Part shown: positions 33,300-62,601 of the stretch, piece by piece | How the letters are laid out: each line of letters starts with the position of its first letter | How positions within the stretch are numbered: the stretch's first letter is position 1 | Assembly (NCBI RefSeq): GCF_014695375.1 | Contig: NZ_JACJOG010000046.1 | Location: 1 to 64,000 of the forward strand | DNA: 64,000 bases | Source of the DNA: Coleofasciculus sp. FACHB-T130 | Lineage (GTDB): Bacteria; Cyanobacteriota; Cyanobacteriia; Cyanobacteriales; FACHB-T130 | Direction of reading: 5' to 3' | Notes under the pieces: model-generated | The model's input: the letters and a program-made list of their open reading frames with translations, nothing else | What the model was told of the DNA's origin: nothing | Databases searched by the model: none | Position numbers and translations under genes: made by a program

Positions 33300-35690
33300 T
33301 TAACCTACAGTTTCTAGAAGGAATTTGCGAATTTTGTGAATATTAAATTCTTTCACTAACAAACTTAATTTGTTGGCAAACGGCTGATAACTTTCATCTA
33401 GTTGGGCAAGTCTTTCCAGTTCTTGTTGGATGCCTTTGATTTGTCCTCGCTTGGCATATTCCAGTAGGCTCGACAGTTCAGATAGGGGTGGCACAGCGAG
33501 TTCGGTTGGGGTTGCGTTTGCGAAGGGCGTTGCGATCGCACGTTCAACAGGTTTTGCCTCGGCATAAATCCAGTCCAGGTGCAGATGTTTTGCCAAGAGG
33601 CGATATAGTTCCTCGACTTGCACGGGTTTAGCCAGAAAATCGTTGCCGCCTGCGGCAAGGCTTTTACGGCGATCGGCATCATACACGCTTGCCGATGACA
33701 CAAGGACTGGCAAATCTTTTAACGTTTCTGACTGGCGCAGCAGCGCGAGCAAATCCCAACCATTCAGGGTAGGCATGATCAGGTCAGTAATGATTAAATC
33801 TGGTTGAACTTGATGCGCCTTTTCCAACCCCTCCCGTCCGTTGCTGGCTTCAATGACGGTGAATCCCAACGGTTGCAGCAAGTTAACCATGACCGAGCGA
33901 TTTTCCCATCGATCGTCCACAATCAAAATGCTTTTGCGATCGCCCGAATAACCAGAAATTCGCCCCCTGGAAATGTTGCTTACTATTGAGTTCGTCGAGA
34001 AAGCACACTCGATCTCAAACTCAAAGGTACTACCGACCTTCGGTAAGCTCTTAACGTGGATGTCTCCTCCCATCATCTCGACAATTTTTTTGGCGATCGC
34101 AAGTCCCAATCCAGTCCCCTCCGCTTGTCGCTTGGTATCGCCAACCTGCTCAAAGGGGAGGAAAATTTGCTCTAGTTGTTCGGGTAACATCCCAATACCC
34201 GTGTCTTCAACCGCAAAGCGAAGCTTCGCGAACGCTGGTTGCTGCCGATTTTCAGTCACCTCCACTCGGAATGTCACGCTACCGGCATCGGTGAATTTAA
34301 TCGCATTGCCCAAGAGGTTCAGCAACACTTGCCGCAAGCGTTTCTCGTCAGTTGCGATCGCTATGGGCAAATTATCGGGTGGCTGATAAATGAACTGAAT
34401 GCCTTTTTGCTCGGCGCGAATGCGGCAAATTTCCTCGACTCCTTGCAGGAAGCCAGGTAGATGTAAATCGCTCAAATGCAGTTCCATCTTACGCGCTTCG
34501 ATTTTAGAGAGATCGAGTACGTCTTCGATCAGCGTTAGCAAATGAGAGCCGCAATTATAGATAATGTCGATGCCGTGTTGTTGCTGTTCGGTAAGATTGG
34601 GGGCAGCAGAAAGAACTTGAGCATACCCCAGAACACCGTTAAGGGGAGTGCGTAGTTCGTGGCTCATGTTGGCAAGAAATTCACTTTTCGCTTGGTTGGC
34701 AACTTCGGCAGAATTTTTCGCCTCATTGAGTTCAGTCGTCCGTTCTTCAACTCGTTGCTCTAATTGATCATTCGCTTGCCGAAGTTTTCTTTCTGCCTTA
34801 CGGTTTTCATTCGTCACCGCAGAGATGACAAATGTGGTGATAGCAATGACACAAATAAACGATTGCAGCAGGATCAGCGATTCGTTGGGAGTGGCTTGCT
34901 TGGCGAACGAGCCGAAGCCGCGAACGGTTCCAAAAACTGCGATCGCTGACACAATTAGCACGAGTAGCGTTGATACCCGCGCTTCAAACCGAAATGCCGC
35001 CCAAATCAGGGGGGGAATTACCATGTATTCGATTGGGTATCCTCCCGAAAAGGCAATATGATCGAGCGCGATTACCCAGACCAATACAAATACAAATTCG
35101 AGAATTTGTTGCTTGTCGAATTTTTTAAATTCAGATTTTTGCCACCATGCCAGCAATAGGGGTGTAACGACCAAAATTCCCGTGGTGTCTGATGCCAACC
35201 AGGTTCGACACACTTCTGCAAATGCTGTCCAGGGCGCAATCCCACTGGTGCAAAGCGTGACGGCAGCCAAGAGGGAACTAATCAGGGGGGTGGGGATAGT
35301 CAGGATGATAAATTTAAAAACATCTTGCGATCGCTCTAAAAAATTGTGGCGTTTGATATAACGATTAATTAAAAAAGTCCCGCTGAATGGAGTGAGCAGG
35401 TTGACAGCGGGAATAATCAGACTGATTAAAAGATTGTTTGGGAAAAAAAGAATATGACTAACAATGAAATCACTCACAAATAAAATAGGCCAGACGCGAT
35501 AGCCTAGTAGCAGCATCGCTGCCAAAAAGACACCGAGTGAAGGCCAAAATACGGAGGCACCATTTACAAAGGTCGTGGATAATCCTACGTATCCTAAATA
35601 GAGGTGAACAATCGGAATTACCAGCGCTGCTGTCAAAAAAGTGCGATCGAGTTTAACTGGGAATTTCTGCGTTATCGACATCGGCTGCAT
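33300..35690 (-). CDS. Hybrid sensor kinase with MASE1 membrane sensor
   Basis: A 796 aa kinase. Residues about 12-300 form a MASE1 membrane sensor with some eight helices ([18 protein letters not shown] and others). Then come a coiled coil, HisKA ([20 protein letters not shown]), HATPase ([24 protein letters not shown]) and a receiver domain ([17 protein letters not shown]). A C-terminal helical segment could be an Hpt-like tail but lacks the clear HxxKG motif. I chose the ATG at 35690 because GGAGACAGGAA lies just upstream. It probably acts with the next gene; the signal is unknown. Confidence 0.88.
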
Positions 35691-35910
35691 TTCCTGTCTC
35701 CGCGCACAGACCATAAGAGCAGCAAACTTCTAGGAAGGCTGCTACCCTTATAGTGCCCAAATTGAATTTGAAGTTAACAGCGGGTGAGATTGAGTTGGTG
35801 CCCGTGCGATCGCAAATTAACTGGCGTTATGGTGACAAAGTATGTCCATCTGAATATTGACCCCTGCAAGGTCTAGGGCTAGTATATCCATAGTTTATTG
35901 TCTCAATCTC

Positions 35911-35994
35911 ATGCTTCCACAGCAGCAATCTCTACACCACTCCACTAGCCGACTACTAGGGCTAGGGCTGCTGCTGCGCCTTGGGCGCAACTAA
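35911..35994 (+). CDS. Leucine-rich leader peptide (leuL-like)
   Basis: A 27-codon frame (MLPQQQSLHHSTSRLLGLGL, then LLRLGRN) with nine Leu codons, seven of them packed within ten codons just before the stop. CTA, often a rare codon, is used three times in that run (35953-35964). It ends directly at a hairpin followed by six T. This is the layout of a ribosome-sensed attenuator, and a 2-isopropylmalate synthase gene lies downstream. No strong Shine-Dalgarno is visible. Seen directly; the regulation is inferred. Confidence 0.6.
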   Translation: MLPQQQSLHHSTSRLLGLGLLLRLGRN

Positions 35995-36000
35995 TTTTTT
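35975..36000 (+). terminator. Attenuator-like hairpin before leuA
   Basis: TGCGCC and GGCGCA form a 6-bp GC stem with a TTG loop (35975-35989). ACTAA and then six T follow. The upstream CAGCAGC at 35919-35925 can pair with GCTGCTG at 35967-35973 and so compete with this stem. The 5-nt gap before the T run makes it an imperfect terminator. Confidence 0.5.
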
Positions 36001-36099
36001 ACCACTTAAACCAAGTTTTTCCCTTTCAAGCCTCAACCTCCTTGCCTACGCGGGCAAGTGCGGCATTGCCATTCATTCACCAATTTTTTGGAGATTTTT

Positions 36100-36255
36100 A
36101 TGCGACTTCATACAGCACTTGAGATGTTACTGCGACTGTTGATGGGTTGTCAGGATGGGTCTGCGTCGCAACCTGGCAACTCCTTGTTTAACTCGATTGC
36201 GATCGCCACAGCATCTCACAAACCCCAAAAATATAGGAAACATCGATCGTGTTGA
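36100..36255 (+). CDS. Small ORF overlapping the leuA start
   Basis: A 51-codon frame with a good Shine-Dalgarno (TTTTGGAGATTTTT before ATG). It starts [17 protein letters not shown], with six Leu codons in the first 14. Its stop overlaps the GTG start of the next gene (GTGTTGA), so translation may be coupled. It may be a second leader peptide or simply a coupling ORF. Confidence 0.4.
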
Positions 36256-37949
36256 AGCATCCCGGAACCAAATATCGTTCATTTGCCCCAATTAACTTAC
36301 CCGACCGCACCTGGCCCTCGAAAACCATTACCAATCCTCCCATCTGGCTCAGTACCGATTTGCGCGATGGCAATCAGGCACTAATCGAGCCGATGCACGT
36401 TGAACGCAAGTTACGTCTGTTCAAGCTTTTAGTCGAGATTGGGTTTCAAGAAATCGAAGTTGCATTTCCCTCCGCTTCACAAACTGACTTTGATTTCGTC
36501 CGCCGCCTGATCGAGCAGCAATTAATACCCGATAACGTCACAATCCAGGTTTTAACCCCTGCCCGCGAACATCTAATTCGTCGTAGCTTTGAAGCATTGC
36601 AAGGTGCAAAACGAGCGATCGTGCATCTTTACAACGCCACCTCTCCAGTCTTCCGCCGCACTGTCTTTAATCTCGATCGCGCGGGCACTATCGAGATGGC
36701 AACATCCGCAGCGCAACTGATGAACGAACTTGCCGCAGCGCAACCGGAGACTGATTGGTATTTCCAATACTCGCCGGAAACCTTTACGGCGACTGAACTG
36801 GATTTTGCTAAAGATATTTGCGATGCCGTTCTGGATGTTTGGCAACCCACACCGCAGCACATGGCAATTATCAATTTGCCTGCAACCGTTGAAGTTGCAA
36901 CGCCTAATATATTCGCAGATCAAGTTGAGTGGATGCATCGTAACTTGGCGCGACGGGATAGCGTAATTTTGTGCGTCCATCCCCACAACGATCGCGGTTG
37001 TGGGGTTGCAGCAGCAGAACTGGCGCAGATGGCAGGTGCGGATCGAGTTGAAGGCTGTCTATTTGGCAATGGCGAACGCACTGGAAATGTGGATCTAGTG
37101 ACGCTGGCGCTGAACCTCTACACCCAAGGCATCCATCCCGGTTTGGATTTTTCTGATATCAACATGGTGGCGAGAACGGTGGAGGATTGCACGCAATTGC
37201 CAATTCATCCCCGCCATCCGTATGTTGGGGATTTGGTATTTACTGCCTTTTCTGGTTCTCACCAAGATGCGATCAAGAAAGGCTTGGCGGTACAGGAATC
37301 GGATGGAATCTGGGAAGTTCCGTATCTGCCACTCGATCCAACCGATGTGGGACGCAGCTACGAATCTGTGATTCGGGTGAATAGCCAATCGGGTAAGGGT
37401 GGCATTACTTTCTTGCTAGAACGGGATTACAGCCTGGTATTGCCCCGCAGGTTGCAAATCGAGTTTAGCCAAGTGGTGCAAAGGGCAATGGATGCTTCCG
37501 GGCAGGAAATGTCTGCAACGGATCTGTGGCAACTATTCGAGCAAGAATATTTGCAGGCAGTATCGCCGTTTAAGTACCTCTCTCACCACTTGTCGGAAAC
37601 AGACAGCGATGAACAAGCGATCGCAGTATCGCTAGAGATGAAGGGGAATCGTATTTCGCTTGCTGGAAAAGGCAACGGCCCTATTGATGCATTCCTAAAG
37701 GCGCTAAATCTTGGCATTCGCATCGATCGTTACGACGAACACTCACTCAGCCAGGGTAGCAATGCGTCTGCGATCGCTTATGTTGAGGTTGCTGGCGATC
37801 GCTTCCCTGGTTCTTTCTACGGCGTTGGCATCCACTCCAATATTGTCACGGCATCGTTACTCGCTGTTCTGGGTGCGGTTAACCGTGCTTGGCAGAAATT
37901 TGATTCAGAAACTCAAATCCAGGTATTACAAAGCTTTGAGTCGGTTTAA
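36249..37949 (+). CDS. leuA: 2-isopropylmalate synthase (LeuA type 2)
   Basis: A 566 aa enzyme that condenses 2-oxoisovalerate with acetyl-CoA, the first step of leucine synthesis. The N-terminal TIM barrel starts with the DRE-TIM signature [32 protein letters not shown] holds the metal-binding His residues, and [11 protein letters not shown] follows. The C-terminal region (residues about 430-566) is the LeuA dimer/leucine-feedback domain. This long form is of the actinobacterial and fungal type, not the shorter form usual in cyanobacteria, so it may be a second, acquired copy. The start is GTG. A leucine-rich leader and hairpin lie upstream; two hairpins lie downstream. Confidence 0.9.
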
Positions 37950-38064
37950 GCCTGATTTTTGAGTAAGAGCGATCGCCGATCCACTTCAATATATGTCAGA
38001 AGGTGTATAGCAAAATTATGTCTTTAGCAACATGATGTAAGTGTGAGGAGTGAAAGTTATAGCG

Positions 38065-38110
38065 AAAAGCCCTTGGAGTCGAAACACGGAAAGACGCCCT
38101 TGGGCTTTTT
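38065..38110 (+). terminator. Terminator-like hairpin after leuA
   Basis: AAAAGCCC and GGGCTTTT(T) can pair across a 29-nt loop and end in five T. It lies 116 bp after the leuA stop. Confidence 0.5.
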
Positions 38111-38185
38111 AGCGTTTTTTGGCTAAAACTTGCCCCGCACGGCTACGAATTACACATCGTATTATCGAAAACTGGGTATAAAGTC

Positions 38186-57552: not shown

Positions 57553-57583
57553 AACACGTTTGTAGCAAGATTGCTGAATTGAT

Positions 57584-57657
57584 GAGGCTGTAACTCAGTT
57601 GCGTAGAGTGCTTGTCTGTCGAACAAGATGTCGCGGGTTCAAGTCCCGTCAGCCTCG
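57584..57657 (+). tRNA. tRNA-Asp (GTC)
   Basis: Acceptor GAGGCTG/CAGCCTC, anticodon loop CTGTCGA, canonical T-loop TTCAAGT. No unusual feature. First gene of the array. Confidence 0.95.
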
Positions 57658-57701
57658 TTCAGCAAATAGAGATAAAAATTCTTAATCTCATCTCGCTACA
57701 A

Positions 57702-57774
57702 GGTCCCATCGTCTAAGCGGCTAGGACACAGTGCTTTCAATACTGGAATACGGGTTCAAACCCCGTTGGGACTA
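57702..57774 (+). tRNA. tRNA-Glu (TTC)
   Basis: Anticodon loop CTTTCAA on stem CAGTG/TACTG; acceptor GGTCCCA/TGGGACT has a G:U first pair. Confidence 0.92.
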
Positions 57775-57827
57775 TGGGGCGATTTAGTATCTGTTTCTTT
57801 CAGATTGTAAATTGCCCAAATCGCCGA

Positions 57828-57901
57828 GGTCGAGTCGCCAAGAGGCTTAAGGCGTCTCTCTGCAAAAGAGAAATTCGTGGGTTCAAATCCCACCTCGACC
57901 T
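57828..57901 (+). tRNA. tRNA-Cys (GCA)
   Basis: Acceptor GGTCGAG/CTCGACC with discriminator T73, as required for Cys; anticodon loop CTGCAAA. Confidence 0.93.
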
Positions 57902-57907
57902 CTCAAA

Positions 57908-57980
57908 GGGAGTATAGCTCAATTGGCAGAGCAGGCGGCTCTTAACCGTATGGTTGCAGGTTCGAGTCCTGCTACTCCCA
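57908..57980 (+). tRNA. tRNA-Lys (CTT)
   Basis: Acceptor GGGAGTA/TACTCCC; loop CTCTTAA gives anticodon CTT. Discriminator A. Confidence 0.92.
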
Positions 57981-58002
57981 CTGCCCTGAAGACTGCAATC
58001 GA

Positions 58003-58075
58003 GGGAGTATAGCTCAGGTGGTAGAGCAGCCTTCTCATAAGAGGCTCGTCGTAGGTTCAATTCCTACTACTCCTA
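58003..58075 (+). tRNA. tRNA-Met (CAT)
   Basis: Loop CTCATAA; acceptor GGGAGTA/TACTCCT. Elongator Met or lysidine-type Ile cannot be told apart from sequence alone. Confidence 0.9.
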
Positions 58076-58080
58076 CTCAA

Positions 58081-58175
58081 AGCCTCATCGTCTAGCGGTT
58101 TAGGACATCGCCCCCTCAAGGCGAGTACAAGGGTACCCTTCGAGAAGGCTTCGCCTACAAATCCCTTTGGGGCTA
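58081..58175 (+). tRNA. tRNA-Glu (CTC), T-loop interrupted by a repeat
   Basis: Acceptor AGCCTCA/TGGGGCT, loop CCCTCAA (CTC). About 22 bp (ACCCTTCGAGAAGGCTTCGC) lie inside the T-loop between AAGGGT and ACAAATCCCTT. Without the insert a normal T-arm would form. Confidence 0.8.
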
Positions 58176-58178
58176 TCT

Positions 58179-58262
58179 GGAGAGGTGGCTGAATGGTAAA
58201 AGCGCTTTTCTGCTAAAGAAGTTTGGGGCAACCCATTGCAGGTTCGAGTCCTGTCCTCTCCG
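58179..58262 (+). tRNA. tRNA-Ser (GCT)
   Basis: Loop CTGCTAA; long variable arm TTTGGGGCAACCCATT as expected for Ser; acceptor GGAGAGG/CCTCTCC, discriminator G. Confidence 0.93.
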
Positions 58263-58274
58263 CCTTTTTCATTT

Positions 58275-58357
58275 GGGTCGGCTCGCCTATTAGGGTGGGC
58301 AGCGGTCTGTAAAACCGCCGCTTTTATGCATTGCAGGTGCGAATCCTGCCCGACCCA
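58275..58357 (+). tRNA. tRNA-Tyr (GTA)
   Basis: Loop CTGTAAA; long variable arm; acceptor GGGTCGG/CCGACCC; T-loop TGCGAAT. Confidence 0.93.
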
Positions 58358-58402
58358 TTGGACTTTGGATTTTTAATTTTAGATTCAAAGTTCAAATCGT
58401 AT

Positions 58403-58474
58403 GTGGGGATGGTGTAATTGGCAACATCTCGATCTCCAAAATCGATGATCTGAGTTCAAATCTCAGTCCCCGCG
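58403..58474 (+). tRNA. tRNA-Trp (CCA)
   Basis: Loop CTCCAAA; acceptor GTGGGGA/TCCCCGC, discriminator G, and an encoded CCA follows. Confidence 0.9.
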
Positions 58475-58479
58475 CCATT

Positions 58480-58573
58480 GAGAGCGTCGTTTAACTGGAT
58501 AAACTCTCTGTCTACGAAACCGTAGCTTGCTTCCCGGAGGGTAGACGTGGGGGTTCAAGTTCCTCCGCTCTCG
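58480..58573 (+). tRNA. tRNA-Arg (ACG), enlarged variable region
   Basis: Acceptor GAGAGCG/CGCTCTC; loop CTACGAA. The anticodon stem has mismatches. The variable region is about 25 nt long and contains GCTTGCTTCCCGGAGGG, which looks like an inserted small repeat. Confidence 0.75.
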
Positions 58574-58580
58574 TCAACTT

Positions 58581-58666
58581 GGAGAGGTGGTCGAGTGGCT
58601 TAAGGCGCAGACTTGGAAAGTCTGATTAGGTTTTACCTAACGCAGGTTCAAATCCTGTCCTCTCCG
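58581..58666 (+). tRNA. tRNA-Ser (GGA)
   Basis: Loop TTGGAAA; long variable arm GATTAGGTTTTACCTAAC; acceptor GGAGAGG/CCTCTCC. Confidence 0.93.
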
Positions 58667-58675
58667 TTGAAACTT

Positions 58676-58750
58676 CCCCCGGTAGCTCAGTTGGTAGTTA
58701 GCGCCTGTTTGAAGCACAGGAGGTCGTCAGTTCGATTCTGACCTGGGGGG
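58676..58750 (+). tRNA. tRNA-Phe (GAA)
   Basis: Loop TTGAAGC on stem CCTGT/ACAGG; acceptor CCCCCGG/CTGGGGG. The D-arm has two extra T (GGTAGTTAGC) and the discriminator is G instead of A. Confidence 0.85.
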
Positions 58751-58757
58751 CTGTCGT

Positions 58758-58829
58758 TGCCTTGTAGCTCAGTGGAAGAGCAGTCGCCTGTTAAGCGAAC
58801 GGTCGTAGGTTCAATCCCTACCAGGGCAG
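58758..58829 (+). tRNA. tRNA-Asn (GTT)
   Basis: Loop CTGTTAA; acceptor TGCCTTG/CAGGGCA; discriminator G. Confidence 0.92.
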
Positions 58830-58837
58830 CCTTTCAT

Positions 58838-58909
58838 TGCCGAGTGGACGAATAGCAAGTCGCATAACTCTGAATTATGAAGTTGTAGGTGCGAATCCTA
58901 CCTCGGCAT
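58838..58909 (+). tRNA. tRNA-Gln (CTG)
   Basis: Loop CTCTGAA on stem CATAA/TTATG; acceptor TGCCGAG/CTCGGCA. Confidence 0.92.
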
Positions 58910-58913
58910 TTAT

Positions 58914-58986
58914 TGGGGAGTCGCCTAATGGCATGGCACCGCTCTTTGAAAGCGGAAAAATGCAGGTTCAAGCCCTGCCTCCCCAG
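58914..58986 (+). tRNA. tRNA-Gln (TTG)
   Basis: Loop CTTTGAA; acceptor TGGGGAG/CTCCCCA; discriminator G. Confidence 0.93.
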
Positions 58987-59016
58987 TTCTGCCCCTGAGA
59001 AGGCAGCTTTCATCAC

Positions 59017-59092
59017 GCTCCTGTAGCCCAATTGGAAGTAGGCGGCTGTCTCAAAAACAGTCTATGTGTGAGTTCGAGTCTCACCGGGAGCA
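59017..59092 (+). tRNA. tRNA with Leu anticodon CAA, class I form
   Basis: Acceptor GCTCCTG/CGGGAGC, discriminator A; loop CTCAAAA. The variable region is only about 6 nt (CTATGT), not the long arm of normal tRNA-Leu. Confidence 0.85.
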
Positions 59093-59101
59093 TCAAAACT
59101 C

Positions 59102-59177
59102 GCTCCTGTAGCCCAATTGGAAGTAGGCGGCTGTCTTAAAAACAGTCTATGTGTGGGTTCAAATCCCACCAGGAGCA
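59102..59177 (+). tRNA. tRNA with Leu anticodon TAA, class I form
   Basis: Near-duplicate of the preceding gene with loop CTTAAAA. Short variable region, and no group I intron, although cyanobacterial tRNA-Leu(TAA) often has one. Confidence 0.85.
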
Positions 59178-59181
59178 TTAA

Positions 59182-59256
59182 CGGGGTGTGGCGCAGCTTG
59201 GCTAGCGCGGCAGCTTTGGGAGCTGAAGGTCGCAGGTTCAAATCCTGCCACCCCGA
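59182..59256 (+). tRNA. tRNA-Pro (TGG)
   Basis: Loop TTTGGGA; acceptor CGGGGTG/CACCCCG; discriminator A. Confidence 0.93.
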
Positions 59257-59259
59257 TTT

Positions 59260-59333
59260 ACCCCTGTGATGCAACAGGTAGACATACTTTGTTGAGTGCA
59301 AAGTTTATGCTGGTTCGATCCCAGCCAGGGGTA
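59260..59333 (+). tRNA. tRNA with Leu anticodon GAG, class I form
   Basis: Acceptor ACCCCTG/CAGGGGT; loop TTGAGTG on stem CTTTG/CAAAG; variable region about 5 nt. Discriminator A. Confidence 0.8.
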
Positions 59334-59373
59334 TTGGGTGTTAAAGCCCGAATACGAATAGACCAATCATTTT

Positions 59374-59448
59374 GCCCCTGTAGCCCAATTGGCACGAGGC
59401 GCTTCGCTTAGAACGAAGAGGTTGCTGGTTCAAGTCCAGTCAGGGGCA
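59374..59448 (+). tRNA. tRNA with Leu anticodon TAG, class I form
   Basis: Acceptor GCCCCTG/CAGGGGC; loop CTTAGAA on CTTCG/CGAAG; short variable region (AGGTT). Discriminator A. Confidence 0.85.
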
Positions 59449-59457
59449 TTGGTGCGA

Positions 59458-59533
59458 TGCGGGTGAAGTAGCCAGGGTAGGCTTGGAGGTCTCATAAGCC
59501 TCTTATCAGCAGGTTCAACTCCTGCCCCCGCCA
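59458..59533 (+). tRNA. tRNA-Met (CAT), second, initiator-like
   Basis: Loop CTCATAA on GAGGT/GCCTC; encoded CCA. The first acceptor pair is a mismatch (T1 x C72), as in initiator tRNAs, but position 7 also mispairs and the anticodon stem lacks three G:C pairs. Subtype uncertain. Confidence 0.75.
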
Positions 59534-59540
59534 CCAAATT

Positions 59541-59612
59541 GCAGGCGTGGTGCAATGGCAAGCATAGAAGTTTCGTAATCTTCTGATGCGAGTTCAACTC
59601 TCGCCGCCTGCT
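59541..59612 (+). tRNA. tRNA-Thr (CGT)
   Basis: Loop TTCGTAA; acceptor GCAGGCG/CGCCTGC; discriminator T. Confidence 0.88.
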
Positions 59613-59616
59613 TCAA

Positions 59617-59736
59617 GCAGATGTGGCGTAACCGGAAACATAAGGGCATGGTAGGCCCTTGATGTGTGTACCCTAGCCTTCGGTAACGGCTAACGCCGAA
59701 CGGGAACGCTGACGCGAACAACCCCCGCCGTCTGCT
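59617..59736 (+). tRNA. tRNA-Thr (GGT), T-arm split by about 48 bp
   Basis: Acceptor GCAGATG/CGTCTGC; loop ATGGTAG on AGGGC/GCCCT. A repeat (CCCTAGCCTTCGGTAACGG, CTAACGCCGAACGGG and more) interrupts the T-arm around 59671-59718. Confidence 0.7.
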
Positions 59737-59744
59737 TTCTGATT

Positions 59745-59816
59745 GCAGGTGTGGTGTTAATGGCAACACAGCAGCCTTGTAAACTGCCTATGCGAGTTCG
59801 AGTCTCGCCATCTGCT
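59745..59816 (+). tRNA. tRNA-Thr (TGT)
   Basis: Loop CTTGTAA; acceptor GCAGGTG/CATCTGC; discriminator T. Confidence 0.92.
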
Positions 59817-59997
59817 TGGGTGTGGCTATGCTAACAGTCTATTTTTTGAGTTTAAAGAGGAGGGAAATATGACAACGATGACGGTTACAGATGCTTTAGC
59901 TCACTTCTTCTCTATATCTTGTTGAACTGAATGGCATGGCTAAAATGCAGAGGCTAATCGTCTGTTAATTTTGTGCTAACGAATTAGAGCAGAAATC

Positions 59998-60843
59998 ATG
60001 AGGCGGATTGCGATCGCTCAAGACACGCTAGAAATTCTCGAAGCAGGCTACTACTACTCCCCTGAAGGTAAACAGGTCGATATTGGTCAAGGATTGGTAT
60101 CCTGTCTTGCTCAGACAAAATACTACGAACCCGATACCCTCTCAACTATCAAACAAAACGTTCTCTCTAGCTCTCCTCAATTCTCAAATATAGAATTTGA
60201 GGTTAGGAATGAGACAACTCTGATGGGAGCAGAACGCATAACGCGATCGCAAAACTTTCAAAAAATTGCCGTTCTCAATTTTGCTTCTGCTAAAAACCCT
60301 GGAGGTGGATTTCTCAAAGGCGCTCAAGCCCAAGAAGAGAGTCTGGCGCGTAGTTCGGCACTTTATAAAAGCCTGTTAAAATGCCCCGAATACTACGATT
60401 TCCATCGTTCTCAGCGATCGCTCCTATACTCCGATCGCATCATCTACTCACCCGGTTGTCCAATCTTCCGAAAAGATGATGGAACGCTTTTAGAGAAACC
60501 TTTTCTGGTTGATTTCATAACAAGTCCAGCTCCTAATGCTGGTGCCATTTGGAGAAACCAACCCAAGGATGCTGAAAAAATACCCGAAGTTCTGTATAGT
60601 CGCGGTGCAAAATTGTTGAGCTTAGCTGTTTACTATGGATGCGATGCTCTAGTTTTAGGGGCTTGGGGATGTGGGGTATTTAAAAATGAGCCATCAATGG
60701 TTGCCCAAATGTTTGCAGATTTCTTATTACCCAACGGTCAATTTTGGGGGAGATTCAAAAGCGTTCTATTTTCTGTACTTGACTCTTCTAAAGAAAGCAG
60801 AATATTTGGAGAATTTCAAAGTCGATTTTCATCAGAAAAATAG
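59998..60843 (+). CDS. Bacterial-type poly(ADP-ribose) glycohydrolase (TIGR02452/DUF2263)
   Basis: A 281 aa macrodomain-type protein. The PARG signature GGG-x(8)-QEE is present as NPGGGFLKGAQAQEESLARS (GGG near 102-104, QEE near 112-114). The family blocks MGAERITRSQ, VLNFASAKNPGG, and LVLGAWGCGVFKNEP near the end are also present. Such enzymes strip ADP-ribose from proteins or nucleic acids. The gene sits inside the tRNA array on the same strand, 181 bp after tRNA-Thr and 52 bp before tRNA-Gly. It may be cotranscribed and act against ADP-ribosylating toxins, or on modified tRNA or rRNA; this is inference. Confidence 0.85.
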   Translation: MRRIAIAQDTLEILEAGYYYSPEGKQVDIGQGLVSCLAQTKYYEPDTLSTIKQNVLSSSPQFSNIEFEVRNETTLMGAERITRSQNFQKIAVLNFASAKNPGGGFLKGAQAQEESLARSSALYKSLLKCPEYYDFHRSQRSLLYSDRIIYSPGCPIFRKDDGTLLEKPFLVDFITSPAPNAGAIWRNQPKDAEKIPEVLYSRGAKLLSLAVYYGCDALVLGAWGCGVFKNEPSMVAQMFADFLLPNGQFWGRFKSVLFSVLDSSKESRIFGEFQSRFSSEK

Positions 60844-60895
60844 GATTCCCTCACAACTAGAATCAACGCCTCAAGCAGTTTCAGATTTTAGATAT

Positions 60896-60967
60896 GCGGA
60901 TATGGTGCAATGGCTAGCACATTAGCCTTCCAAGCTTATGATACGGGTTCGAGTCCCGTTGTCCGCT
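60896..60967 (+). tRNA. tRNA-Gly (TCC)
   Basis: Loop CTTCCAA; acceptor GCGGATA/TGTCCGC; discriminator T. Confidence 0.93.
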
Positions 60968-60978
60968 CTGTTAAATAT

Positions 60979-61050
60979 GCGGGTGTGATGTAGCGGCTAG
61001 CATCTGAGTGCGCCACACTCAGCGCATGGGTTCAAATCCCATCACTCGCT
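60979..61050 (+). tRNA. tRNA-Gly (GCC), C at position 33
   Basis: Acceptor GCGGGTG/CACTCGC; stem TGAGT/ACTCA; loop GCGCCAC has C instead of the near-universal T33. Confidence 0.8.
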
Positions 61051-61055
61051 TTCGT

Positions 61056-61127
61056 AGTCCTGTAGCTCAATGGTGGAGCGTTTGCCTTACAAGCAAGGGG
61101 TTGCGGGTTCAAATCCTGCCAGGACTA
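61056..61127 (+). tRNA. tRNA-Val (TAC)
   Basis: Loop CTTACAA; acceptor AGTCCTG/CAGGACT; encoded CCA. Confidence 0.92.
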
Positions 61128-61139
61128 CCAATTTAGATT

Positions 61140-61212
61140 GCCTCCATAGCTCAGGGGAAAGAGCAGCACTCTTCTAAAGTGATTGTCCTAGGTTCAAATC
61201 CTAGTGGAGGCG
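61140..61212 (+). tRNA. tRNA-Arg (TCT)
   Basis: Loop CTTCTAA; acceptor GCCTCCA/TGGAGGC; discriminator G. Confidence 0.92.
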
Positions 61213-61226
61213 CTGGTTTAACGCTT

Positions 61227-61250
61227 CTTAATTTAAGGAGGTGAATTAAG
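61227..61250 (+). ncRNA. Hairpin presenting an extended Shine-Dalgarno
   Basis: CTTAATT and AATTAAG form a 7-bp stem; the loop is TAAGGAGGTG. AAGGAGGTGA is the complement of the TCACCTCCTT end of 16S rRNA. No start codon of a real ORF follows at a useful distance. Confidence 0.7.
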
Positions 61251-61316
61251 TTGGTTTGTTGATATTTTGCAATTACGGCGATCGCATCTTGCGTGACCCA
61301 ATCACTAGAGCCTACA

Positions 61317-61340
61317 TACTTTAGTACGAGAGGAAAAGTA
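61317..61340 (+). ncRNA. Sarcin-ricin loop mimic
   Basis: The 12-nt universal loop AGTACGAGAGGA (E. coli 23S 2654-2665) is exact. It is closed by TACTTT/AAAGTA, a fully paired stem unlike the CTCC/GGAG stem of bacterial 23S. Confidence 0.8.
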
Positions 61341-61387
61341 ACGCTGTTCAAACACAGCGGGCGTTTGAGAACGAGGAGTGCGAAGAA

Positions 61388-61444
61388 CCCGGCAGGTTGG
61401 CTTCAAGGTAGCCATCCTTTAAAGAGTGTGTAACAACTCATCGG
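61388..61444 (+). ncRNA. GTPase-associated-centre mimic
   Basis: Aligns with E. coli 23S 1051-1108 over its length. GTTGGCTT, AGCCATC, TTTAAAGA and GTAA are kept. Closing stem CCGG/TCGG and inner stem GAGT/ACTC differ in sequence from 23S yet still pair. Confidence 0.75.
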
Positions 61445-61530
61445 CGGAGTCCCTCTAGTAACTGAGAAAACGCAAAATGCTCTGATAACTTGCACGCGAG
61501 AATGCGATCGCATTCAACAACACAAAACAC

Positions 61531-61604
61531 GGGTCTGTAGCTCAATTGGTAGAGCATCTACCTTGCAAGTAGAAAGATGTCAGTTCGATTCTGACCAGTA
61601 TCCA
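61531..61604 (+). tRNA. tRNA-Ala (TGC), acceptor mismatched
   Basis: Loop CTTGCAA on TCTAC/GTAGA; T-loop normal. The 5' acceptor GGGTCTG pairs poorly with CAGTATC, with mismatches at 3:70 and 4:69, so the Ala G3:U70 signal is absent. Confidence 0.7.
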
Positions 61605-61613
61605 CCAAATTTA

Positions 61614-61687
61614 GGGGTCATAGCTCAAAAGGCACGAGCGCTTGCTTTGCACGCAAGAGGTTAGGAGTTCGATTCTCCTTGACTCCA
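61614..61687 (+). tRNA. tRNA-Ala (TGC)
   Basis: Loop TTTGCAC on CTTGC/GCAAG; acceptor GGGGTCA/TGACTCC keeps the G3:U70 identity pair; discriminator A. Confidence 0.88.
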
Positions 61688-61691
61688 TCAT

Positions 61692-61766
61692 GGTGTCTGA
61701 AGCCAAAGCGGTAGCGGCGCTGGTTTGTGGAACCAGTCATAGCGGGTTCGATTCCCGTCAGACACC
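61692..61766 (+). tRNA. tRNA-His (GTG)
   Basis: Loop TTGTGGA; acceptor GTGTCTG/CAGACAC with encoded G-1 paired to C73, the His identity element. Confidence 0.93.
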
Positions 61767-61773
61767 CCTGAAT

Positions 61774-61859
61774 GGAAGCTGCTGCCGAGAGGACGGCAAC
61801 CTGTCTCGAACACAGGAGTGCAGTGAATAACTGTAGGGGTTCGACTCCTCCAGCTTCCG
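61774..61859 (+). tRNA. tRNA-Ser (CGA)
   Basis: Loop CTCGAAC; long variable arm; acceptor GGAAGCT/AGCTTCC; discriminator G. Confidence 0.92.
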
Positions 61860-61870
61860 TTATTCAACTC

Positions 61871-61957
61871 GGAAGATGCCGCCGAATGGACGGCAAGCGG
61901 CCTTGAAAACCGTGGTACGGCAGTGATGTCGTAGGGGTTCGATTCCTCCATCTTCCT
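61871..61957 (+). tRNA. tRNA-Ser (TGA)
   Basis: Loop CTTGAAA; long variable arm; acceptor GGAAGAT/ATCTTCC; discriminator T rather than G. Confidence 0.88.
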
Positions 61958-61961
61958 TTGT

Positions 61962-62033
61962 CCACTGGAGGCTGAAAAGCGAAGCACCGTGCTGATAACG
62001 CGGCTATAGAAGGGGCAGTACCTTCCCAGTGGA
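61962..62033 (+). tRNA. tRNA-Ile-like (GAT), non-canonical D- and T-loops
   Basis: Acceptor CCACTGG/CCAGTGG; loop CTGATAA on CCGTG/CGCGG. The T-loop is GGCAGTA on GAAGG/CCTTC and the D-loop GAAAAGCGA lacks GG, so the usual D-T contact cannot form. Confidence 0.65.
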
Positions 62034-62036
62034 TTT

Positions 62037-62106
62037 CCCTCTGCCAACGGAATAGGATCTGGTGCTACGAACGCCGGACTTGATGGTTCGACTCCATCCA
62101 GAGGGG
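62037..62106 (+). tRNA. tRNA-Arg-like (ACG), reduced D-arm
   Basis: Acceptor CCCTCTG/CAGAGGG; loop CTACGAA on TGGTG/CGCCG; T-arm normal. The D-arm is poorly paired. 70 nt. Confidence 0.65.
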
Positions 62107-62109
62107 TTT

Positions 62110-62178
62110 CCCTTGCCTGCGGGATGCAGACCTAGCCCTCCGAAGGCTGGCGACCAAGTTCGACTCTTGGGCGAGGGG
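62110..62178 (+). tRNA. tRNA-Arg (CCG), mini D-loop
   Basis: Acceptor CCCTTGC/GCGAGGG; loop CTCCGAA; T-loop TTCGACT. The D-arm is CTGC/GCAG with a 5-nt loop (GGGAT). Confidence 0.7.
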
Positions 62179-62182
62179 TTAT

Positions 62183-62277
62183 TCCGGGATAGCTCAATAG
62201 CAGAGTTCGCGGCTGTTAACCGCGTTGTTGTAGGTACTCTCCCTTGAAGGCTGTGCCTACAAGTCCTACTCCCGGAG
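62183..62277 (+). tRNA. tRNA-Asn (GTT), T-loop interrupted by a repeat
   Basis: Acceptor TCCGGGA/TCCCGGA; loop CTGTTAA on CGCGG/CCGCG; encoded CCA. About 23 bp (ACTCTCCCTTGAAGGCTGTG) are inserted between GTAGGT and ACAAGTCCTAC. Confidence 0.8.
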
Positions 62278-62287
62278 CCAATTTTCA

Positions 62288-62364
62288 CCCGTGTCCTAAC
62301 AGACAAAGCATACACACTCGGCTGTTAACCGACAAAACCAAATGCTTTTTCGACTTGCACGGGA
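62288..62364 (+). tRNA. Degenerate tRNA, Asn-like anticodon (GTT)
   Basis: Acceptor CCCGTGT/GCACGGG; loop CTGTTAA on TCGG/CCGA. D- and T-arms are poorly formed (T-arm CAA...TTG with extra bases). Possibly a decayed gene. Confidence 0.45.
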
Positions 62365-62372
62365 TAAAACTT

Positions 62373-62441
62373 CCCTTACCTGCTGGATGCAGACTTATTC
62401 CTCCTAAGAATGGTAGCCAAGTTCGACTCTTGGGTAAGGGG
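62373..62441 (+). tRNA. tRNA-Arg (CCT), mini D-loop
   Basis: Acceptor CCCTTAC/GTAAGGG; loop CTCCTAA; D-arm CTGC/GCAG with loop TGGAT. Same build as the CCG gene at 62110. Confidence 0.7.
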
Positions 62442-62445
62442 TTAA

Positions 62446-62517
62446 TGCCAGATAGCTCAATGGCGGAGCAAGCGGCTGTTAACCGCAAGGTTGTGGGTTC
62501 GACCCCCACTCTGGCAG
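62446..62517 (+). tRNA. tRNA-Asn (GTT)
   Basis: Acceptor TGCCAGA/TCTGGCA; loop CTGTTAA; canonical arms; discriminator G. Confidence 0.93.
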
Positions 62518-62529
62518 TTTCATTTGTGC

Positions 62530-62601
62530 GGGTGGTTGGCATATCGGCTGTGCAGCTGGCTTTTAACCAGCACCAGATAGGTTCAACTCCTATACCACCC
62601 A
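62530..62601 (+). tRNA. tRNA-Lys (TTT)
   Basis: Acceptor GGGTGGT/ACCACCC; loop CTTTTAA on GCTGG/CCAGC; discriminator A. Confidence 0.92.

Follow-up and report, generated by a model that had tools for sequence, protein, structure and literature searches.

The stretch of Coleofasciculus sp. FACHB-T130 DNA analysed here (64,000 nucleotides, referred to as the window) contains a 27-codon leucine-rich ORF, ORF1, which, as sequence comparison and folding models suggest, probably acts as leader peptide in a ribosome-mediated transcription attenuator controlling a second leuA gene, one of the long form. An earlier note had proposed a leucine leader and attenuator at this site, a proposal supported by the conserved leucine codons, the promoter-like site, the hairpins and the genomic linkage described below. 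ORF1 occupies 35911..35994 of the forward strand, with an ATG at 35911 and a TAA stop at 35992-35994 (direct reading and ORF list; the list has the frame begin further upstream, at a TTG at 35857), and encodes the peptide MLPQQQSLHHSTSRLLGLGLLLRLGRN. The length of 27 codons and the nine leucine codons given earlier were both correct on direct reading, and a GC hairpin and T-run are both present at the end of the ORF. CTA codons number four (codons 8, 15, 16 and 18) rather than three, and the distance from the stop to leuA, previously put at about 250 bp, is 254 nt.

The downstream gene encodes a 2-isopropylmalate synthase of 566 amino acids (36249..37949, forward strand; TIGR00970 at 785.9 bits, the cut-off being 697.4) and starts with a GTG at 36249. 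The genome also carries three relatives that are more distant, the best of which is a short form with 27% identity. In a quick tree of 54 rows plus the window, from which proteins of less than 480 amino acids and loci L001 and L005-L008 were excluded, the long LeuA proteins of cyanobacteria form a single group (support 100) adjoining proteobacterial sequences.

Conservation of the leader ORF and linkage to long-form leuA

Among 264 ATG-initiated ORFs of 20-40 amino acids in the window, ORF1 alone contains at least 33% leucine. The binomial probability of at least nine leucines among 26 residues is 0.0019, so the composition of the peptide by itself is unconvincing; it is conservation in relatives that makes ORF1 more than chance. 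Long-leuA loci were drawn from one genome for each of 84,980 species, 80 being kept of 181 confirmed, and a search of 40 relatives contributed four more (L005-L008), giving 85 loci with the window. The ORF1 count covers 64 of these (the window, the four from relatives and 59 from the species-wide set); the 21 others bear proteobacterial labels and were inspected separately. ORF1 is present in 60 of the 64 loci, in 58 distinct sequences. Three of the misses (L048, L075, L094) have at most 310 nt of upstream sequence, and the fourth (L079, labelled Moraxellaceae) shows weak likeness only. The leader ORF and its leucine run, whose conservation in relatives the earlier note had named as a check, are therefore both retained.

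The consensus is close to MFxKQLSLxxxSSLLLGLGLLLRLGRK/N. Leucine occurs at codons 8, 15, 16, 18, 20, 21, 22 and 24 in 52, 51, 44, 57, 60, 60, 58 and 50 of the 60 ORFs, respectively, with synonymous variation, while the end of the peptide is variable even as the leucine codons and helices are kept. Leucine codons total 217 CTG, 203 CTA, 86 CTT, 45 CTC, 30 TTG and 12 TTA. This corresponds to 34% CTA and 7% TTR. The yardstick, a set of 35 long ORFs from the window, gives 11.7% and 38%; it represents a single species, the leaders many. ORF1 is thus a conserved leader ORF enriched in codons for the amino acid that would regulate it. It has no Shine-Dalgarno sequence in the window, and an SD-like motif precedes it in just 3 of the 60 loci. 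A pattern scan identified a sigma-70-like promoter, TTGACC-17-TAGTAT (35857..35885, forward strand), the -10 element of which ends 25 nt 5' of the ATG. The pattern TGAC-N16-22-TAnnnT is found 5' of ORF1 in 48 of the 59 loci with enough sequence, where 1.7 would be expected from mononucleotide shuffles. The scan, which spanned 35300-36600, gave no further promoter-like site on the forward strand from there to 36600; this includes 36000-36600, where a promoter, as the earlier note had recognised, would have counted against an attenuator.

A sequence-only model of ORF1 (R1) was built on an alignment (A1) of 53 of the 58 distinct sequences, without L053, L055, L058, L059 and L081; no structure was included because RNAalifold gave no consensus pair on A1, a blank that we think reflects misaligned hairpin variants. 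Searched against 388 genomes of the class, R1 gives 56 matches at E ≤ 1e-6, and tblastn on their surroundings places a long leuA downstream of 55. The exception (L135) comes from a 3.4 kb contig that carries no long leuA. In one of the 55, from genome G285 (L145, 1295-2219), the leader is present and the long leuA is matched in pieces (query 1-69 and 318-560). Conversely, a long leuA is detected at E ≤ 1e-100 in 62 of the 388 genomes, and R1 matches 55 of these 62 at E ≤ 1e-6, in G289 on a contig other than that of its long leuA. Weaker R1 matches with a recognisable ORF occur in G112 and G174, and G235 has a diverged leucine-rich ORF with a hairpin and T-run. The long-leuA match in G123 and G312 does not begin until residue 127 or 128, probably because the contig ends there, and G284 offers 310 nt of upstream sequence. 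No leader was seen in the intact upstream region of G059, the LeuA of which is 56% identical. Conservation across loci, together with this linkage, rules out a chance leucine run. None of 26 short-form leuA loci matches R1 at E ≤ 0.05.

At E ≤ 0.01, R1 matches 135 of the 388 genomes, the matches above E = 1e-6 being mostly partial. Where the surroundings of such weaker matches were checked, a long leuA was found at L171, L172 and L178 and none at L170, L173, L177 and L179. Weak matches also appear in long-leuA loci with proteobacterial labels (L097 2846-2880, L086 2716-2775, L079 2760-2799 and L092 2876-2931), where ORF1-like ends with hairpins lie 5' of the gene; in another such locus, L108, the weak match is on the opposite strand.

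Alternative RNA structures and modelled ribosome positions

Three structures are predicted within ORF1, all on the forward strand. The 1:2 hairpin has an inner helix, P1 (35945..35965), pairing segment 1 (CUAGCC, 35945-35950) with segment 2 (GGCUAG, 35960-35965). P1 is paired in 90.5% of alignment cells, and four of its six pairs are changed on both sides. One pair is UA in 22 rows, CG in 18 and UG in 5, the CTA/CTG change at Leu-18 going with the partner base; Ser-13 is encoded by AGC in 50 of 52 serines. The outer helix, P0 (35921..35975), pairs 35921-35927 with 35969-35975 in the fold and was counted as 35922-35926 with 35967-35971. Its pairs (GCAGC:GCUGC) are formed in 87% of cells and none is changed on both sides. 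The earlier note had read CAGCAGC:GCTGCTG as an antiterminator, placing GCTGCTG correctly at 35967 and CAGCAGC one nucleotide too early (it starts at 35920, not 35919). We reject this role, as the pairing belongs to P0, on the outside of the 1:2 hairpin, barely overlaps the terminator and shows no double-sided change.

The terminator-like hairpin (3:4) consists of TGCGCC-TTG-GGCGCA at 35975-35989 (-8.7 kcal/mol) and a T-run at 35995-36000, the whole spanning 35975..36000. The stop codon of ORF1 sits between the two, and the 5 nt separating stem from T-run make this a less than ideal intrinsic terminator. The hairpin alone is also weak evidence, because a pattern scan of 35300-36600 finds three terminator-like sites where 1.3 are expected. 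A TGC...GCA hairpin is found in 48 of the 60 loci, in several stem variants and with a poor T-run in some. The 12 loci missing this type include nine from Calothrix or Dulcicalothrix, and four of the 12 have another hairpin before a T-run. For P0, P1 and the terminator together, 30 cells carry double-sided changes, compared with 11.4 in shuffles, and the covariation score is 0.167 compared with 0.130; no shuffle of 500 reaches either value, the shuffles being of a kind that ignores relatedness. Neither the count of double-changed pairs (5, with 4.6 in shuffles) nor the count of pair types (18, with 19.1 in shuffles) exceeds the shuffled level.

The predicted antiterminator (2:3; 35962..35984) pairs 35962-35971 with 35976-35984. 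RNA begun at segment 2 folds as this structure (-15 kcal/mol) rather than as the terminator (-8.7 kcal/mol). Five pairs of the antiterminator core were tested and show no covariation beyond shuffles.

The effect of ribosome position was modelled with folds limited to the RNA that lies 3' of a ribosome whose edge is 14 nt past the start of the A-site codon. For the window, the free RNA has a terminator probability of about 0.6. The terminator is favoured with the ribosome at codons 4 to 8, the antiterminator at codons 9-13, and the terminator again at codons 14-18; at codon 19, the last computed, the ribosome covers part of the stem and neither structure forms. The model was applied to 46 of the 60 loci, leaving out two duplicates, four hand-named loci without a usable hairpin and eight without a TGC-type hairpin. 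Averaged over these orthologues, the probability of the terminator is 0.85 when the ribosome edge is 36 nt short of the stem, falls to 0.23 at 24 nt and is back at 0.88 at 6 nt. All three states (terminator, antiterminator, terminator) are seen in 35 of the 46, so that folding predicts mutually exclusive hairpins set by ribosome position. The dip amounts to 0.54; ten codon-order shuffles abolish it (-0.08 to 0.04), and ten synonymous resamplings weaken it (0.22 to 0.38). As synonymous resampling retains about half of the dip, part of the switch signal is due to the peptide. At offsets of 12-15, a stall at Leu-8 in the window species fails to reach the modelled antitermination window by 2-5 nt. 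An early leucine codon falls inside the modelled window in 26 of the 46 loci at an offset of 14 (25 to 31 over offsets of 12-17), a ribosome stalled at Leu 15, 16 or 18 favours termination in the model, and all 46 loci have some leucine codon whose stalled ribosome would cover 3 nt or more of the terminator arm.

Pathway logic suggests that read-through would occur on leucine shortage. When leucyl-tRNA is plentiful, the 1:2 and 3:4 hairpins would form, or the moving ribosome would cover segment 2 (codons 14-18), and transcription would terminate. When it is scarce, a ribosome held at an early leucine (codon 8; in relatives also 7 and 9-12) would mask segment 1, allowing 2:3 to form and RNA polymerase to read through. 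A stall at Leu 20-22 or 24 would place the ribosome on the terminator itself, also permitting read-through. Because ORF1 runs through the terminator, a nearby unstarved ribosome would be expected to block it as well.

This last feature invites a coupling-type control of opposite sign, like that of pyrBI, in which a ribosome close behind RNA polymerase blocks the in-ORF terminator and starvation at codons 15-18 frees it, giving less leuA when leucine is scarce. The location of the terminator inside ORF1 and the modelled preference for termination with ribosomes at codons 14-18 are both in keeping with such control, but for leuA the outcome would be anti-homeostatic, and the conserved switch between alternative structures is left unexplained; we regard this control as quite improbable. 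ORF1 might instead be a gene in its own right, for a small protein or an sRNA, that has a promoter and terminator of its own and merely lies beside leuA. The promoter-like site would fit, as would a stop-to-leuA distance that ranges from 135 to 839 nt across loci. However, the linkage to long leuA is tight, the peptide ends vary while leucine codons and helices are constant, and the switch exceeds shuffles, all of which make an independent gene very unlikely.

A second leucine-rich leader

A further leucine-rich leader ORF, ORF2, which the earlier note had overlooked, lies between ORF1 and leuA (36100..36255, forward strand), preceded by a Shine-Dalgarno GGAG at 36090..36093 (direct reading). 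Its peptide ends in ...RSC and its stop overlaps the leuA GTG. Relatives have M-x-L-H...LLRLxxGCQ in common. The alignment (A2) comprises 26 of 35 distinct stretches, without L040, L077, L079, L082, L091, L098, L100, L103 and L107, and in all 26 rows CGACT, with its Arg CGA codon, is invariant. RNAalifold on 26 rows gives a conserved stem of 11 pairs inside the ORF (36144..36182; 36144-36154 with 36172-36182), three of which are changed on both sides. A candidate pseudoknot helix (36166..36202) would pair TCGCAA (36166-36171) with TTGCGA (36197-36202); a 5-mer match of this kind is present in 29 of 35 evaluable loci, compared with 9.7 expected from mononucleotide shuffles, two more loci being not evaluable.

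By eye, ORF2 stops within or just past the 5' arm of the stem in Calothrix locus L047 and in Cupriavidus loci, and the stem is kept. In L047 (2868-2978) a TAG in the 5' arm cuts the ORF, and the stem still pairs through double-sided changes, which suggests selection on the RNA rather than on the end of the peptide. A model of the element (R2) gives 26 matches in 25 of the 388 class genomes at E ≤ 0.001. Long leuA follows on the same contig in 23 of the 26, and the matches in G289 (C89), G312 (C64) and G123 (C78) are on contigs other than those of the detected leuA.

ORF2 probably adds a second leucine-dependent step, and our guess is that it acts on leuA translation. The two leaders may tentatively be read as a two-stage sensor on one mRNA, in which the attenuator is followed by a second leucine leader on a pseudoknot that is translationally coupled to leuA. 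The attenuator stage of such a sensor would have two antitermination windows, one from masking of segment 1 at the early leucines and one from occlusion of the terminator at Leu 20-24. We know of no other system with a tandem leucine-leader design. The pseudoknot-like element could also be the main leucine sensor, with ORF1 setting just the basal read-through. The Shine-Dalgarno sequence, the overlap with the leuA start, the conserved stem and the probable pseudoknot all speak for such a role, yet R2 is found in only 25 of the 388 genomes (E ≤ 0.001) compared with 56 with ORF1 (E ≤ 1e-6), and the Nodosilinea group, for instance, has ORF1 and no R2 match, so this division of labour appears rather unlikely.

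Comparison with known leaders and genomic surroundings

In enterobacteria, leuL is a leucine-rich leader ORF with alternative 1:2, 2:3 and 3:4 RNA structures that targets leuA; the stop codon precedes the terminator, and a ribosome finishing there frees it. The proposed ORF1 attenuator resembles this system (RF00512) in its leucine-rich ORF, in its alternative structures and in its target. It differs in the form of leuA and in the phylum, and in that ORF1 of the window and of most relatives runs through the terminator hairpin. The region has no match to the Rfam Leu_leader (RF00512) or to the Rfam T-box family, which rules out identity with a known Rfam leader or T-box. The C. glutamicum ilvBNC leader is reportedly made without a ribosome binding site (the title of a study by Morbach in 2000), a property it would share with ORF1.

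The Rfam amino-acid leaders, with RF00512 as the Leu leader, are analysed in PMC3766115, and actinobacterial leuA leaders are described in PMC8079986 and PMC4046766, the first of these two giving S. lividans LeuL1 as MRFGLLLLSCRGEGL. In the actinobacterial ilvB leaders, as outlined in Seliverstov 2005 (PMC1262725), a short ORF with branched-chain codons overlaps a terminator hairpin with a U-run. ORF1 overlaps its terminator hairpin in the same manner, whereas the target of those leaders is ilvB.

ORF2, in turn, resembles the actinobacterial LEU element outlined in the same source: it is a leader ORF with a leucine run before leuA, with a following stem and a candidate pseudoknot, and by eye a comparable loop-to-downstream pairing is seen in actinobacterial loci L186-L188. 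No LEU-like leader was seen in Streptomyces locus L189. At E ≤ 0.05, R2 has no match in actinobacterial loci L186-L189 or in the Cupriavidus loci, and homology between ORF2 and the LEU element is therefore not detected. Inspection of the window by eye did not reveal pairing of the leucine run with the leuA Shine-Dalgarno sequence, a LEU element trait, and unlike the LEU element, ORF2 usually overlaps leuA.

According to a 2016 paper (PMC4833913), there are no reliable data on an attenuation mechanism in cyanobacteria. We recognised no cyanobacterial leu attenuator among the titles and abstract openings of open-licence literature, and older subscription work may hold one. If the attenuator reading of ORF1, for which the comparative support is strong, is correct, leucine sensing by ribosome stalling reaches the cyanobacteria, a phylum where such control is not yet established, and transcription-translation coupling becomes testable there. 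The two-stage reading, if correct, would likewise extend ribosome-mediated attenuation to this phylum.

Two other RNA features lie on the same strand further downstream. A Cyano-1 RNA (RF01701, 48.5 bits) is located at 38037-38114, shortly 3' of leuA. ARAGORN predicts 36 clustered tRNA genes at 57583-62601, 28 of which match at the Rfam gathering score; the cluster includes four tRNA-Leu genes, with anticodons caa, taa, gag and tag.
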